From: Polynucleobacter sp. HIN5
GTDB taxonomy: Bacteria > Pseudomonadota > Gammaproteobacteria > Burkholderiales > Burkholderiaceae
NCBI RefSeq assembly: GCF_030297555.1
Contig: NZ_AP028136.1
Span: 1,426,001-1,490,000, forward strand
Length of the DNA stretch: 64,000 nt
Reading direction: 5' to 3'
The stretch's first letter is position 1; every line of letters begins with the position of its first letter. The notes beneath the pieces were generated by a model. The model had not been told where the DNA came from, searched no databases, and saw nothing but the letters and a program-made list of their open reading frames with translations. This document shows, one piece after another, positions 7,194 to 60,714 of this stretch. The position numbers were made by a program, and so were the translations under genes.

Positions 7194-7284
<91 letters not shown>

Positions 7285-26291: not shown

Positions 26292-26367
26292 TGGTGCCGG
26301 AAATAGGAATCGAACCTACGACCTTCGCATTACGAATGCGCTGCTCTACCAACTGAGCTATTCCGGC
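26292..26367 (-). tRNA. tRNA-Thr(CGU)
   Basis: 76 nt including encoded CCA (26294-26292). Acceptor GCCGGAA pairs with TTCCGGC. D-loop AGCTCAGTTGGTAGAGC, anticodon loop TTCGTAA (anticodon CGU, reading ACG), T-loop GGTTCGATTCC. It lies 71 bp after pepN on the same strand. Confidence 0.97.
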
Positions 26368-36349: not shown

Positions 36350-36883
36350 TCAATCTTTAAGTAAAGAAGAGAAGGTCTTTTTAAACTTACTGACCTTGGG
36401 TCCAACGACCGCCATGCAATACCCTTGAAATGGGTGATTGCGGTAGTAGTTCTGGTGATAATCCTCCGCGGGATAAAAAATAGGAGCCATGATCACTTCG
36501 GTAACAATCGGATCAGAGAAGTGTCTTTGCTCCTCAAGCTCTTTAACTAGCTCATTGGCGATTTGTAATTGCTGCTCGTTAAGTGCATAAATCACGGAGC
36601 GATATTGCGTGCCTACATCATTGCCCTGGTAGTTCAATGTGGTTGGATCATGAATCACAAAAAAGATTTCTAGCAACTGCCGATACGAAATGATGGTGGG
36701 ATCAAACTCAATTTGAACAACCTCGGCATGACCCGTTGACTCTGAACAGACTGCCTCGTAACTTGGATTGGCAACATGGCCACCAGCATATCCCGAGATC
36801 ACATGCGTAACGCCCTGAACCCGCTGATAGACCGCCTCAAGGCACCAGAAACACCCGCCACCCAATATTGCTTTCTCCGTCAT
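36350..36883 (-). CDS. msrA: Peptide methionine (S)-S-oxide reductase
   Basis: Repairs oxidised methionine. 177 residues from ATG 36883 (MTEKAILGGGCFWCLEA); catalytic Cys is in GCFWC, with YAGG, GHAEVVQIEFDP and DVGTQYRSVIY conserved. No MsrB domain is fused. An extended frame upstream would run into the LeuE gene and is not used. Confidence 0.96.
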   Translation of the reverse strand: MTEKAILGGGCFWCLEAVYQRVQGVTHVISGYAGGHVANPSYEAVCSESTGHAEVVQIEFDPTIISYRQLLEIFFVIHDPTTLNYQGNDVGTQYRSVIYALNEQQLQIANELVKELEEQRHFSDPIVTEVIMAPIFYPAEDYHQNYYRNHPFQGYCMAVVGPKVSKFKKTFSSLLKD

Positions 36884-36917
36884 CGTTGCCACAAATACTC
36901 TCCAATCATTCGTGATC

Positions 36918-37577
36918 TTAATTACCCATGAGTAAGCGTAACGCAAAATAGATAAACAAGATGCCAACCCCAAACCAGAGCACGGCTGTCCATTGTGGAT
37001 GACGCTCAATGCGATAAGCCAGAGTTTCACCAAGCCAAATCAATACGCCTAAGTAGGTGATGCTAATCACCTGCAAGATGATGGCGAGGTATAAAAAACT
37101 CAGGGCCGGATTGGCAAACTGTGGATCCACAAACTGGGTAAAGAAGGAGATGAAGAAAAAAATGGCTTTGGGATTAGTAAGGGATAAGCCAAGCGCAGCC
37201 ACAAATGGATGCATTTGCATGAGTCGCATGGAGCTTGTTTGCGAACTATTTTGTGGGGAAATCTTTTGCAAACGACTCCAAGCGGCTCGGATCAGGCCCG
37301 AAGCTAGCCATAGTAAGTAAATCGCCCCCAGCCAGCGTAATGCCATAAAGAGGCCAGGAGAGTTTTGTAAGAGCGATGCGGCCCCTAAAACAATGGCCAC
37401 CATCAGAATCGAATCGCCCACCACAATGCCGCATGATGCCCACGCTCCGGCCCTCCAGCCCAGCTTGGAAGAGGCTGTCAGGACATAAAGGGAGTTTGGG
37501 CCCGGTAATAAAACAATCGCAATGGTGCCCAAAATATAGGTCGGCAACTGCACGACGCCCACATGCGTCAAATTCAT
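36918..37577 (-). CDS. LysE/RhtB family exporter, LeuE-like
   Basis: 219 residues, six helices. The family signature VLLPGPNSLYVLTASSKLGW lies near residue 20, and LSLTNPKAIFFFISFFTQFVD near 130. The closest resemblance is to LeuE (leucine/neutral amino-acid export). ATG 37577 (MNLTHVGVVQLPTYILGT) aligns with LeuE N-termini; ATG 37589 is possible. Divergent from the helicase gene. Confidence 0.85.
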   Translation of the reverse strand: MNLTHVGVVQLPTYILGTIAIVLLPGPNSLYVLTASSKLGWRAGAWASCGIVVGDSILMVAIVLGAASLLQNSPGLFMALRWLGAIYLLWLASGLIRAAWSRLQKISPQNSSQTSSMRLMQMHPFVAALGLSLTNPKAIFFFISFFTQFVDPQFANPALSFLYLAIILQVISITYLGVLIWLGETLAYRIERHPQWTAVLWFGVGILFIYFALRLLMGN

Positions 37578-37698
37578 CCAATCCAGCATGACTAGATCAT
37601 AAACAGGAAACGTGTCATAATGGAGGGCTTTTTGAAACATCGTCCCCAGCAATTCACATTTTTCAGCGTTTTGGTTTTTACCCCGCTGCCGCTTGTCT

Positions 37699-37774
37699 GA
37701 TGGTCGATGCCCTTGACCATCGCGCCTTTACATAAACATGGCGCACAACCGGAGACCATCCTGTAAGAGGATGG
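37699..37774 (+). promoter_or_regulatory. Structured leader with alternative pairings before the DEAD-box helicase gene
   Basis: Three consecutive hairpins precede the ATG at 37782. HP1: GATGGTC (37699-37705) / GACCATC (37715-37721). HP2: GCGCC (37722-37726) / GGCGC (37740-37744). HP3: CCATCCT (37756-37762) / AGGATGG (37768-37774), whose 3' arm contains the SD (GAGG). The HP1 partner GACCATC is repeated exactly at 37754-37760, overlapping the 5' arm of HP3. HP1's left arm can therefore pair with either copy, and pairing with the second frees the SD. No U-tract, so control would be translational. Confidence 0.65.
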
Positions 37775-37781
37775 GTATTGC

Positions 37782-39104
37782 ATGTCACATTCTGCTGAAA
37801 TTACGAATCATTCATTTGCTTCACTGAACTTAGCGGCGCCTTTACTCAAGAACATTGAGGCGCTCGGCTATACCCAAGCCACCCCCGTCCAAGCACAGGT
37901 TATTCCTGCGGCCCTCGAGGGCGGTGATTTATTGGTGAGCAGCCAAACAGGAAGCGGTAAAACCGCTGCCTTTTTATTGCCACTCCTTCATCAACTCGTT
38001 CTTGCCAACCCCCATGGTAGCCCTGTGCCTGGTCGCGCTCAGCCCAAGATCTTGGTTTTGTGCCCAACCCGCGAACTCGCTCAACAAGTTGCCACCGATG
38101 CAATTAATCTGGCACGCGGTATTAAGAGCCTACGGATTGCCACCATCATGGGCGGTATGCCCTATGGCAAACAAATCCAAGCCATTAAGGGTGCGAGCTT
38201 AGTAGTAGCCACCCCGGGTCGCTTGCTAGATTTATTTAACTCGCGTGCCATTCGCCTAGATCAAGTTGAGTGCCTGGTCGTCGACGAGGCCGATCGCATG
38301 CTTGATCTTGGCTTTGCTGAAGATCTTGAGGCAATCGATGAGCGTTGCAAAGGCCGTTCTCAAACCCTGATGTTCTCAGCAACGTTCGCACCACGCATCA
38401 TGAGCCTTGCCTCAAATCTAACTAAAGATGCTAAGCGGATCGAGCTTGCCCATGCCGGTGAAGCGCATGCCAACATCGCCCAAAAACTACATTGGGCTGA
38501 CAACATGGCGCACAAACATCGTCTGTTGGAGCACCTGCTCTCCGACCCCGAGCTCGATCAAGCAGTTGTCTTCGCGAGCACCCAAGTGGAAAGCGAAAAG
38601 ATTGCTGACACCTTGCGTGCCAATGGCTATCAAGCGAGCGCCTTGCATGGCGCGATGCCACAGGCCGTTCGCAACCGTCGCCTCGATTCATTACGCAAAG
38701 GTCAAACCCGGATTTTGGTCGCCACTGATGTGGCTGCGCGTGGGATTGACGTGCCCCGGATTAGCCACGTGATCAATTTTGGTCTTCCCATGAAACCCGA
38801 AGACTATACCCACCGTATCGGTCGTACGGGTCGTGCCGGACGCAATGGCATTGCCATCACATTGGCCGAGCATCGTGACCGCGTGAAAATCAGAGCCATT
38901 GAGCGATTTACCCAGCAACCCATGGCTGCTGCAGAAATTGCAGGTCTTGAGCCTCAACAAAAACCAAGCTCACATAAACCCAATCATCGCCCTGGGGCTG
39001 CTAAACGCAGTAAACCCAAGTTTGGGGGACAGGCTCGCAAAAGTTCAGGGCCGCGCTTTGGCTCCCGTACAGGCTCATTCCAAAATAGCACACGTCAGCA
39101 TTAA
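37782..39104 (+). CDS. DEAD-box ATP-dependent RNA helicase (RhlE-like)
   Basis: 440 residues. All helicase motifs are present: Q-motif (YTQATPVQAQ), Walker A SQTGSGKTAAF, PTRELAQQ, TPGRLLD, DEAD in VVDEADRMLDLGF, SAT, ATDVAARGIDVP, and HRIGRTGRAGR. A ~60-residue basic tail rich in K/R/G/S (KRSKPKFGG, GPRFGSRTG) should bind RNA, as in RhlE. Its leader is able to hide its own ribosome-binding site, suggesting autoregulation or cold control. Confidence 0.95.
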   Translation: MSHSAEITNHSFASLNLAAPLLKNIEALGYTQATPVQAQVIPAALEGGDLLVSSQTGSGKTAAFLLPLLHQLVLANPHGSPVPGRAQPKILVLCPTRELAQQVATDAINLARGIKSLRIATIMGGMPYGKQIQAIKGASLVVATPGRLLDLFNSRAIRLDQVECLVVDEADRMLDLGFAEDLEAIDERCKGRSQTLMFSATFAPRIMSLASNLTKDAKRIELAHAGEAHANIAQKLHWADNMAHKHRLLEHLLSDPELDQAVVFASTQVESEKIADTLRANGYQASALHGAMPQAVRNRRLDSLRKGQTRILVATDVAARGIDVPRISHVINFGLPMKPEDYTHRIGRTGRAGRNGIAITLAEHRDRVKIRAIERFTQQPMAAAEIAGLEPQQKPSSHKPNHRPGAAKRSKPKFGGQARKSSGPRFGSRTGSFQNSTRQH

Positions 39105-39116
39105 TTAGCGCCTTGT

Positions 39117-39707
39117 ATGTTGTGGCGGAAGTCTCGCTCCCCATCGACCTGGCATCAACTTAACCATGGAGCACCTTTAGGTGCTCCATTGGCACTACAA
39201 GAATGGTTAAGGGATACCGGCTCGCTCACACGCAAACTCGAGAAGGCGCTTCTCTACCCCGAAGATCGTCACCTGGAATTACAGATCCTTGCTGATTGCA
39301 AACAAAATTTAGTCGCATCCGAAAAGAAATTCTTTCGACGCCCGATCAATCGCTCGCGGATTCGTGAGATTTTGCTGTGCGATCAGGGTGAGCCGATTGT
39401 GATGGCGCGGAGCGTATTGCCCATCACAAGTTCGATTGGCAGCAACCATACGATTCTGAAATTGGGTCATAAACCCTTGGGTGCCGTTTTATTTGCCAAA
39501 GTTCTCAAGGGACGCTTTCGCCCCATTCGGCAAATTGTTCGTTTGGACCACCATCATCCAGAGTGGAAAGTCTGCCAGCGCCGTTATGCAGATCTGCCCA
39601 AACGCGTTTGGGCCAGACGTACACTCTACCAACTCAATGGCCATCCTTTACTAGTCATGGAAATCTTTTTACCTGCTCTGCTAGCCAAGCTGCAGCAGAC
39701 TGACTAA
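39117..39707 (+). CDS. ubiC: Chorismate--pyruvate lyase
   Basis: First committed step of ubiquinone synthesis: chorismate to 4-hydroxybenzoate plus pyruvate. 196 residues. REILLCDQGEPIVMARSVLP, LGHKPLGAVLF, and PKRVWARRTLYQLNGHPLLV then MEIFLP match UbiC, including the Arg and terminal Glu of the product pocket. It starts 12 bp after the helicase stop. The 3' end overlaps convergent hemD by 53 bp. Confidence 0.92.
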   Translation: MLWRKSRSPSTWHQLNHGAPLGAPLALQEWLRDTGSLTRKLEKALLYPEDRHLELQILADCKQNLVASEKKFFRRPINRSRIREILLCDQGEPIVMARSVLPITSSIGSNHTILKLGHKPLGAVLFAKVLKGRFRPIRQIVRLDHHHPEWKVCQRRYADLPKRVWARRTLYQLNGHPLLVMEIFLPALLAKLQQTD

Positions 39708-56969: not shown

Positions 56970-57049
56970 TGAAATATTTACTCGAACCACTCATTGTAAG
57001 CCTTCCGATATCAGATATTCGGGTTATTCCTAGTCACAAATAGGGTAAT

Positions 57050-57245
57050 ATTAGGTTGTCGTGGTGCCCATATGTATGACATCTGGGTTAAACGGGAAAC
57101 ACTACCCAAACGTGTGCTGCCCCCGCAACGGTAAGTGAATGCGCTAGTTGTTTAGCGCTATGGTTTGATAAGCCACTGTGTATCAATGCATGGGAAGGCC
57201 AAATCTAAAGTTCACCAGCCCGGATACCGGCCAAGACAGGTGGAA
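57050..57245 (+). ncRNA. Cobalamin (B12) riboswitch
   Basis: Conserved core elements in order: GGTGCC (57063-57068), TTAAACGGGAA (57088-57098), CCCCGCAACGGTAAG (57121-57135), AGCCACTG (57171-57178), GGGAAGGCC (57192-57200), and the B12 box GCCCGGATACCGGCC (57218-57232). Downstream, GAACGGGGACC (57252-57262) can pair with GGTCCTTGTTC (57280-57290) as an expression platform; no U-tract follows, so translational control is more likely. It precedes the btuB-like gene. Confidence 0.95.
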
Positions 57246-57375
57246 TTTCGTGAACGGGGACCTTCGCGCGCCAATAAAGGGTCCTTGTTCGCCCTCATTG
57301 ACGCTCATCCCTATTCCGCATTCTGTATCGCCCGCTAACGGGGAGGTTGGCAGGCATTACAACTTGGGATTTGTC

Positions 57376-60200: not shown

Positions 60201-60534
60201 AGTAAGTCTTGCTGGCCACAAAATCATGCTTGCTACGTCAAGCGATCATGAGCCATTGCTGCGTGAGGCTTGCTCCTTAGTGGATGAACAAATTAAGTTG
60301 GCACTCGCCAGTGGTAATAAGAGTATTGAACGGGCAGCCATGATGGCAGCTATTAAATTAGCGGGTGACCTGATTCAGGCTCAGCAATCTTTGGCACAAG
60401 CAGCCAATGCCCCCAAGGTTGATCCCGAACAACTGACTTTGATTGAACAGGAAGTCAATGCACTTGAACAGCAAGTCGATTCCCTGATCAAAACACTTTC
60501 CCTGCCTGGTGCGCCAAGGCCAATAGTTCCTTGA
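60181..60534 (+). CDS. zapA: Cell division protein ZapA
   Basis: FtsZ-ring stabiliser. 117 residues from ATG 60181 (MTQQRIEVSLAGHKIML). The N-terminal globular part includes LLREACSLVDEQIKLALASG, followed by the C-terminal coiled coil (QLTLIEQEVNALEQQVDSLI). The last codons appear to double as the 5' arm of the 6S RNA closing stem. Confidence 0.92.
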   Translation: MTQQRIEVSLAGHKIMLATSSDHEPLLREACSLVDEQIKLALASGNKSIERAAMMAAIKLAGDLIQAQQSLAQAANAPKVDPEQLTLIEQEVNALEQQVDSLIKTLSLPGAPRPIVP

Positions 60535-60710
60535 ACCGATGCGTAAGCATACGGAACGGGTATTGCAGTATGGGCGCGAGCGTCTGGTCGATTTACAGTG
60601 TGGGCTTGTCCGATACTCCCTGAGTCATTTGATGCACCCGAAGTATTGCTACCGTGCCACCTTGAACTTTAGGGTTCAGGATGACGGTCTAGCGACCAAG
60701 GCGGGGATCC
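60500..60710 (+). ncRNA. ssrS: 6S RNA
   Basis: Position directly after zapA is the standard ssrS locus. The 3' part, CACCTTGAAC..GGGTTCAGG (60657-60680), matches the E. coli 6S segment that forms the small hairpin of the central bubble. A closing stem can form between CCCTGCCTGGTGCGC (60500-60514) and GCGACCAAGGCGGGG (60692-60706), about 14 pairs with two bulges. An inner stem uses GCAGTAT with GTATTGC. 6S RNA binds sigma-70 RNA polymerase in stationary phase. The 5' end is uncertain; if the stem is right, it starts inside zapA. Confidence 0.7.
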
Positions 60711-60714
60711 TTTT

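Follow-up and report, generated by a model that had tools for sequence, protein, structure and literature searches.

A conserved structured leader before a CsdA-like DEAD-box helicase gene in Polynucleobacter and its probable relation to a two-helix RNA element of the Burkholderiales

DEAD-box helicases remodel RNA, and little is known of how cells meter their activity. A gene for such a helicase lies in the window, the 64,000-nucleotide stretch of DNA from Polynucleobacter sp. HIN5 analysed here, and the segment in front of it can be drawn in more than one paired form. The locus raises the question of which pairings are conserved, in the genus and beyond, and what they might mean for expression of the helicase. 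The leader extends from 37638 to 37781, directly before the helicase start at 37782 (Table 1), and a conserved CATCG box at 37638 puts its 5′ side 61 nt or more upstream of the start given in an earlier reading of the same DNA (the original prediction). The three adjacent hairpins of that prediction are recovered in the computed fold as the tandem HP1, HP2 and HP3, with the Shine-Dalgarno (SD) sequence in HP3 as claimed. The fold energy of these hairpins is only modestly better than that of dinucleotide shuffles (z -2.06; 7/200 shuffles equally good). The CATCG box is complementary to GG-U-CGAUG, which consists of the HP1 5′ arm and loop. A scan of 36500-39500 found no intrinsic terminator between leader and gene, the + strand having none before 37953, and intrinsic transcription attenuation was rejected on this ground.

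Table 1. Features of the helicase leader and gene in the window (positions are those of the window).
Feature	Position	Strand	Basis or remark
-10-like CATAAT, putative leader promoter	37616..37621	+	sequence pattern; -35 TTG absent at 15-19 nt in window species
5′ box CATCGTCC	37638..37645	+	proposed upstream partner (helix A) of HP1 5′ strand
CAGCG arm	37664..37668	+	pairs with CGCTG 37684-37688 in window minimum-energy fold (predicted)
CGCTG arm	37684..37688	+	partner of CAGCG 37664-37668 (predicted fold)
P1 5′ strand CCGCTTGT	37689..37696	+	partner 37745-37752; covariation
HP1, GATGGTC-loop-GACCATC, loop start GATGCC	37699..37721	+	near-invariant; taken as short helix B
Shared strand GGTCGATG	37702..37709	+	either HP1 5′ arm and loop, or helix A with 37638-37645
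HP2	37722..37744	+	covariation in genus alignment
P1 3′ strand ACAACCGG	37745..37752	+	continues into GGAG 37751-37754
Second GACCATC	37754..37760	+	exact copy in window leader only, 1/62
HP3, sequesters SD	37756..37774	+	fold and covariation
Shine-Dalgarno AAGAGG	37765..37770	+	by sequence; ATG 11 nt downstream
CsdA-like DEAD-box RNA helicase of 440 aa (best model, score below its cut-off)	37782..39104	+	

The gene had been labelled rhlE. The DEAD-box assignment holds and the RhlE part does not, since the NCBIfam models for CsdA (NF053636) and SrmB score 418 and 393 bits against 338 for RhlE; the cut-offs for CsdA and RhlE are 890 and 743, and no NCBIfam helicase model reaches its cut-off for this protein. 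The CsdA model is also the best for the orthologues L112 and L118, and a Polynucleobacter paralogue (L135) scores 637 bits with the RhlE model. Because CsdA is the best model and the paralogue fits RhlE better, the scores suggest that the window gene is CsdA-like rather than RhlE. The next gene (39117-39704, +) resembles chorismate lyase at 70.6 bits, below the cut-off of 191. Further away in the window, Rfam models match a Cobalamin riboswitch (57045-57249, +; 84.8 bits), a 6S RNA (60496-60711, +; 56.9 bits) and tRNA genes at 7198-7284 and 26295-26367, both on the - strand.

A search of 121 genomes with the leader DNA matched 60 of them, the window's own genome included. One of these (G108) is a chance match inside a long frame that by eye resembles ribosomal protein S1, and was rejected as a leader. 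Fourteen same-genus genomes gave no leader DNA match, and 13 of them carry the helicase gene, with leaders that are divergent versions. The genus-type set comprised 72 leaders, 63 of them distinct once nine had been dropped as core-identical; one leader cut by a contig end (L059) and one without the helicase (L060) were set aside. Alignment A2 holds 62 of the 63 distinct leaders, omitting L069 (segment end misplaced), and is composed of 61 from the genus and one from a MAG labelled beta proteobacterium (L091) that was counted with the genus and has a helicase of 80% identity.

By this comparison the genus leader is a conserved RNA structure with the helices P1, HP1, HP2 and HP3. The model was drawn from the same sequences that were used for its covariation test, in which 94.0% of 1542 cells in A2 are paired (89.3±0.3% in shuffled alignments), with 78 two-sided cells (19.8±3.5 shuffled), 12 pairs showing a two-sided change (6.9±1.3) and a covariation score of 0.180 (0.116±0.004), each value being reached in 0/500 shuffles. 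The count of further pair types (28 against 25.8±1.5 shuffled, 59/500) is not outstanding, and in slid controls the paired share is at most 50.5%. Most of the two-sided cells (52 of 78) fall in HP2, which is 93.0% paired, changes on both sides in 5/6 pairs (GC/AU, AU/GC, CG/UA) and is missing from 7/62 rows. P1 is 96.2% paired, with two-sided changes in 3/6 pairs and 18 of the 78 cells; clade-shared changes are counted repeatedly here, as 14 of those 18 cells represent one change in two pairs in the 7 rows without HP2. HP3 (96.3% paired) has two-sided changes in 4/7 pairs and 8 of the cells. HP1 is 90.6% paired and near-invariant, with zero two-sided changes. Of the four helices, RNAalifold run unaided on A2 recovered HP3 alone, together with a 3-bp hairpin that lies inside HP1, the divergent rows being misaligned.

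The 5′ box, CATC(G/A)(T/C)CCCC, is present in 72/72 genus-type leaders (63 distinct, L091 included). The sole sequence that tests pairing of the box with the HP1 strand is L063, where CATCA in the box is accompanied by TGATG in the strand, a compensatory change. A -10-like hexamer (loose pattern) lies 15-30 nt upstream of the CATCG box in 68/72 leaders, 54/72 also having a TTG -35. An upstream leader peptide starting from the CGATG box was considered and rejected, as 5/71 leaders lack a start codon there and the lengths and sequences scatter. Many of the genus leaders L008-L058 have an in-frame ATG within HP3, 12 nt upstream of the helicase ATG; in the window the ATG within HP3, at 37771, lies in another frame, and no ATG is present there in L029, L031 and L034. 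Leaders of a divergent clade (L069, L070, L072 and L073) have a longer linker between the box and HP1, and a conserved hairpin-like stretch, GTCTT..AAGACGTAG.

Outside the genus, the motif CATCG-n-CUGACC…GGUURGCGnCGAUG occurs in leaders of the same helicase in many Burkholderiales. The helicase was found in 131 of 200 Burkholderiales genomes searched (E up to 1e-95), and 144 leaders from these 200 genomes and named contigs were examined. The downstream box occurs within 2 substitutions in 89/144, or 85 once near-copies were removed, and 71 of the 85, picked by upstream-box score and spacing, form alignment A1, two of whose rows come from MAGs with the labels Desulfobacterales and Desulfuromonas (L116, L118). 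As judged from the sequences, the downstream strand can pair either with the upstream box (helix A) or locally with a downstream partner (helix B), the two being mutually exclusive and B the weaker.

Comparison across the order supports helix A by covariation. The upstream boxes were chosen by likeness to CATCG-n-CTGACC, a consensus itself complementary to the strand; in the 85 leaders 885/935 helix-A cells are paired, against 871.5±2.3 when the boxes are re-dealt (0/2000 as high). On A1, 96.5% of 781 cells are paired (95.4±0.2% shuffled), 13 cells are two-sided (5.5±1.7) and the covariation score is 0.158 (0.133±0.006), none of these being reached in 500 shuffles. One pair varies as UA 40/UG 18/CG 12. 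Doubly changed pairs (191/500) and further types (189/500) are not above shuffles. Support for helix B is modest: 69.9% of 615 cells are paired (66.6±0.9% shuffled, 0/500) and the covariation score is 0.192 (0.166±0.010, 4/500), with 36 two-sided cells (28.2±4.1, reached in 26/500) and with doubly changed pairs (314/500) and further types (363/500) unexceptional. The tests for both helices are inflated by relatedness among the leaders. When folded locally, 71/85 leaders show the box engaged in 5 or more pairs with downstream sequence, a raw count with no control. A swap test came out in favour of both helices (upstream z -3.1, 6/5000; downstream z -5.6, 0/5000) and is confounded by G+C, and in dinucleotide shuffles of each flank the 5% level is reached by only 36/85 upstream and 15/85 downstream pairings (median z -1.28 and -0.66).

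The element is tied to the helicase gene across the order, as shown by searches with the covariance model R1. With an E threshold of 1e-3 these gave 96 matches in 95 of the 200 order genomes, and 94/94 checkable matches are upstream of the helicase; the other two, cut by contig ends, could not be placed, and no match was found away from the helicase. The helicase match begins 19-194 nt (median 89.5) downstream of 86 of the 96, and lies downstream on the same strand for 8 of the other 10, at 16-608 nt for the seven measured, distances that run to points inside the protein, where the matches start. For the 65/96 matches that belong to A1 or have a 40-mer in common with it, the place before the helicase is built in; 31/96 are outside the training set, and 30/30 checkable ones among these are at the helicase. 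No R1 match was found in 42 helicase-bearing genomes outside Polynucleobacter, and of 15 divergent Burkholderiales loci three (L189, L206, L213) have a leader match at E below 0.02. L101 and L123 have no R1 leader match. Seven leaders (L101, L104, L106, L107, L123, L192 and L196, Collimonas and Herbaspirillum included) carry a long conserved block, CGGCGCAAAGCTTTTGTGCC, upstream of the helicase, followed by CATTTCG and TTGGCG or similar. A search of the class gave 18 matches in 15/274 genomes at E up to 0.01, of which four are upstream of a helicase (L283, L285, L289, L299) and 14 have no helicase in the fetched flanks. By eye, L299 has the inner helix CUAACC:GGUUGG and a different outer helix.

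The window leader was not found by the genome-wide R1 search. In a local scan it scores 4.7 bits, with the boxes correctly placed, and ranks second in 1.5 kb. The 26 other genus loci likewise gave no significant leader match, and 6/26 have a weak one (E 0.5-4.4) starting at the CATCG box. As R1 does not significantly detect the genus leaders, the link is built on position, the shared boxes and one compensatory change. The window leader is located upstream of the orthologous helicase gene, as is the order-wide element, and like it has a GG..CGATG strand able to form a local hairpin, here HP1, with a CATCG box on its upstream side. L175-L177 appear to be intermediates with TTGGTCGA(T/C)GCG, the hairpin arms matching in L176 and L177 (by eye). 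The same gene and place, the box, the strand with its hairpin, the L063 change and these intermediates together indicate that the genus leader, that of the window included, is probably homologous to the order-wide element, as a divergent member.

Helices A and B are close in predicted energy across the order. Helix A was compared with the best fold in which the inner upstream arm is kept unpaired, in 71 leaders and with no control set; the median difference is -0.3 kcal/mol at 37 °C, with 41/71 leaders within 3 kcal/mol, and -3.0 kcal/mol at 10 °C, with 26 within 3 kcal/mol, a computed move toward helix A in the cold. Folds of the window leader forced at 37 °C have -51.3 kcal/mol for HP1, -41.2 for helix A and -41.4 for HP1's GATGGTC paired with the second GACCATC. 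The HP1 state is favoured over helix A by about 10 kcal/mol at 37, 20 and 10 °C, with no shift of state. Exposure of the SD is alike in all states tested (mean unpaired probability 0.33, 0.34 and 0.31, in the same order), and no computed state opens HP3. In cspA-type leaders one leader adopts exclusive folds, one of them favoured in the cold, a resemblance in the way of working; unlike those leaders, the window leader precedes a different gene and has no computed change in SD exposure.

The leader is most likely autoregulatory and possibly cold-responsive, and it may well be a cis-acting leader of a CsdA-like helicase in which a divergent member of the order-wide two-helix element lets the helicase feed back on its own leader. 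HP1 in the window would then correspond to helix B, and 37638-37645 to the upstream box. In the genus, as the comparison shows, P1 closes HP1 and HP2, and HP3 follows and buries the SD. In the proposed working, cooling would favour helix A, which would open P1 and expose GGAG (37751-37754) as a ribosome standby site beside HP3, allowing the helicase to be made; the accumulating helicase would then shift the leader into P1/HP1, the more stable state, and lower translation. The assignment of helix A as the ON state is tentative. Autoregulation by the helicase is suggested because of precedents in the available text of PMC5472812 and PMC3485376.

The foremost alternative is a genus leader without switching, a static 5′ UTR structured as P1, HP1, HP2 and HP3, which would serve mRNA stability and basal translation, the CATCG box being kept for RNase or protein binding or similar. 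The dominance of the HP1/P1 state in the window at all three temperatures and the failure of R1 to detect genus leaders are consistent with this, as is the near-invariance of HP1 and the 5′ box, whose pairing is tested by L063 alone. However, helix A covaries across the order, A and B are near-equal in energy there, and the window loop GATGCC and the box retain their complementarity. A static UTR is a serious but rather unlikely explanation. A regulatory leader that recognises protein rather than switching is less likely again: the GGUCGAUGCC hairpin would serve as an operator recognised by the helicase or by some other RNA-binding protein, and the alternative pairing would be incidental. Genes of RNA metabolism commonly have autogenous protein operators, and HP1 and its loop are conserved in sequence beyond the needs of pairing, but the strand covaries with the upstream box order-wide.

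Control of the helicase gene by a metabolite riboswitch is very improbable. The compact junction and conserved loop are aptamer-like in general appearance only, and across the order the element goes with a helicase gene rather than a metabolic one. Rfam 15 at the gathering threshold gave four matches elsewhere in the window and none in the leader, a scan of 37500-37900 under relaxed settings gave a single match, to an lncRNA and due to chance, and 20 relatives' loci gave 0 matches; a riboswitch of an Rfam family was rejected accordingly.

Least tenable is the pairing put forward in the original prediction, in which GATGGTC (37699-37705) switches between GACCATC at 37715-37721, which would trap the SD in HP3, and the second copy at 37754-37760, which would free it. 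Both copies are present, exact and perfectly complementary, but the switch was rejected because the second copy is found in 1/62 leaders, and pairing with it is weaker by about 10 kcal/mol and does not free the SD. Lack of conservation of this copy had been named beforehand as refuting, and the one leader with an exact copy after HP1 is the window's own. A downstream 7-mer with at least 6 pairs to the HP1 arm occurs in 5/62, and HP1 itself has 7/7 pairs in 55/62. Across the window GACCATC occurs 15 times against an expectation of 6.9, so a lone second copy is weak evidence. Covariation among related leaders, the check proposed with the original prediction, was found, as two-sided changes, in P1, HP2 and HP3 and not in HP1. 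What survives of the proposed alternative-pairing riboregulator is a conserved structured leader and, order-wide, a shared strand; the downstream partner does not, and the relatives point instead to the upstream CATCG box.

A literature search, in which subscription journals were only partly covered, found no description of such a helicase-leader element. PMC2864571 has no mention of helicase or rhlE and PMC4603805 none of helicase, and PMC5874925, in the part available, deals with RhpA and the rnj 5′ UTR. A close likeness is the 186-nt 5′ UTR of Caulobacter crescentus rhlE. According to the accessible text of PMC5472812, maximal expression requires this UTR, an rhlE mutant shows raised expression from it, and the protein is cold-induced. 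Both are long leaders with predicted stem-loops before a DEAD-box helicase gene, but Caulobacter is alphaproteobacterial and its gene encodes RhlE whereas the window gene is CsdA-like, and the accessible text describes no two-state pairing. In Synechocystis, crhR is an RNA helicase gene that regulates its own expression with temperature, and the account, in the sections of PMC3485376 available, concerns the half-life of transcript and protein and, unlike the window leader, includes no such leader element. The csdA transcript of the cold-adapted Pseudomonas syringae Lz4W has a 227-nt 5′ UTR in which, unlike the window leader, its authors report no noticeable specific motif (available part of PMC10783127). 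In three Pseudomonas/Stutzerimonas genomes R1 gave two matches with E no higher than 0.01 (L345, L346), and neither of them lies at the helicase. Autoregulated helicase leaders are a known kind, and the sequence family and the shared-strand design appear to be new.

The broader proposal, put forward tentatively, is of an RNA family absent from Rfam 15, spread over many Burkholderiales and occurring in part of the rest of the class. Two exclusive helices would share a strand in it and the helicase would resolve the less stable one, making the leader a direct, cold-tuned sensor of free helicase activity. If true, the shared-strand leader would naturally act as a substrate-sensor for its own enzyme. 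The order-wide element is testable, with defined arms, and would add an RNA family that is lacking in Rfam 15.
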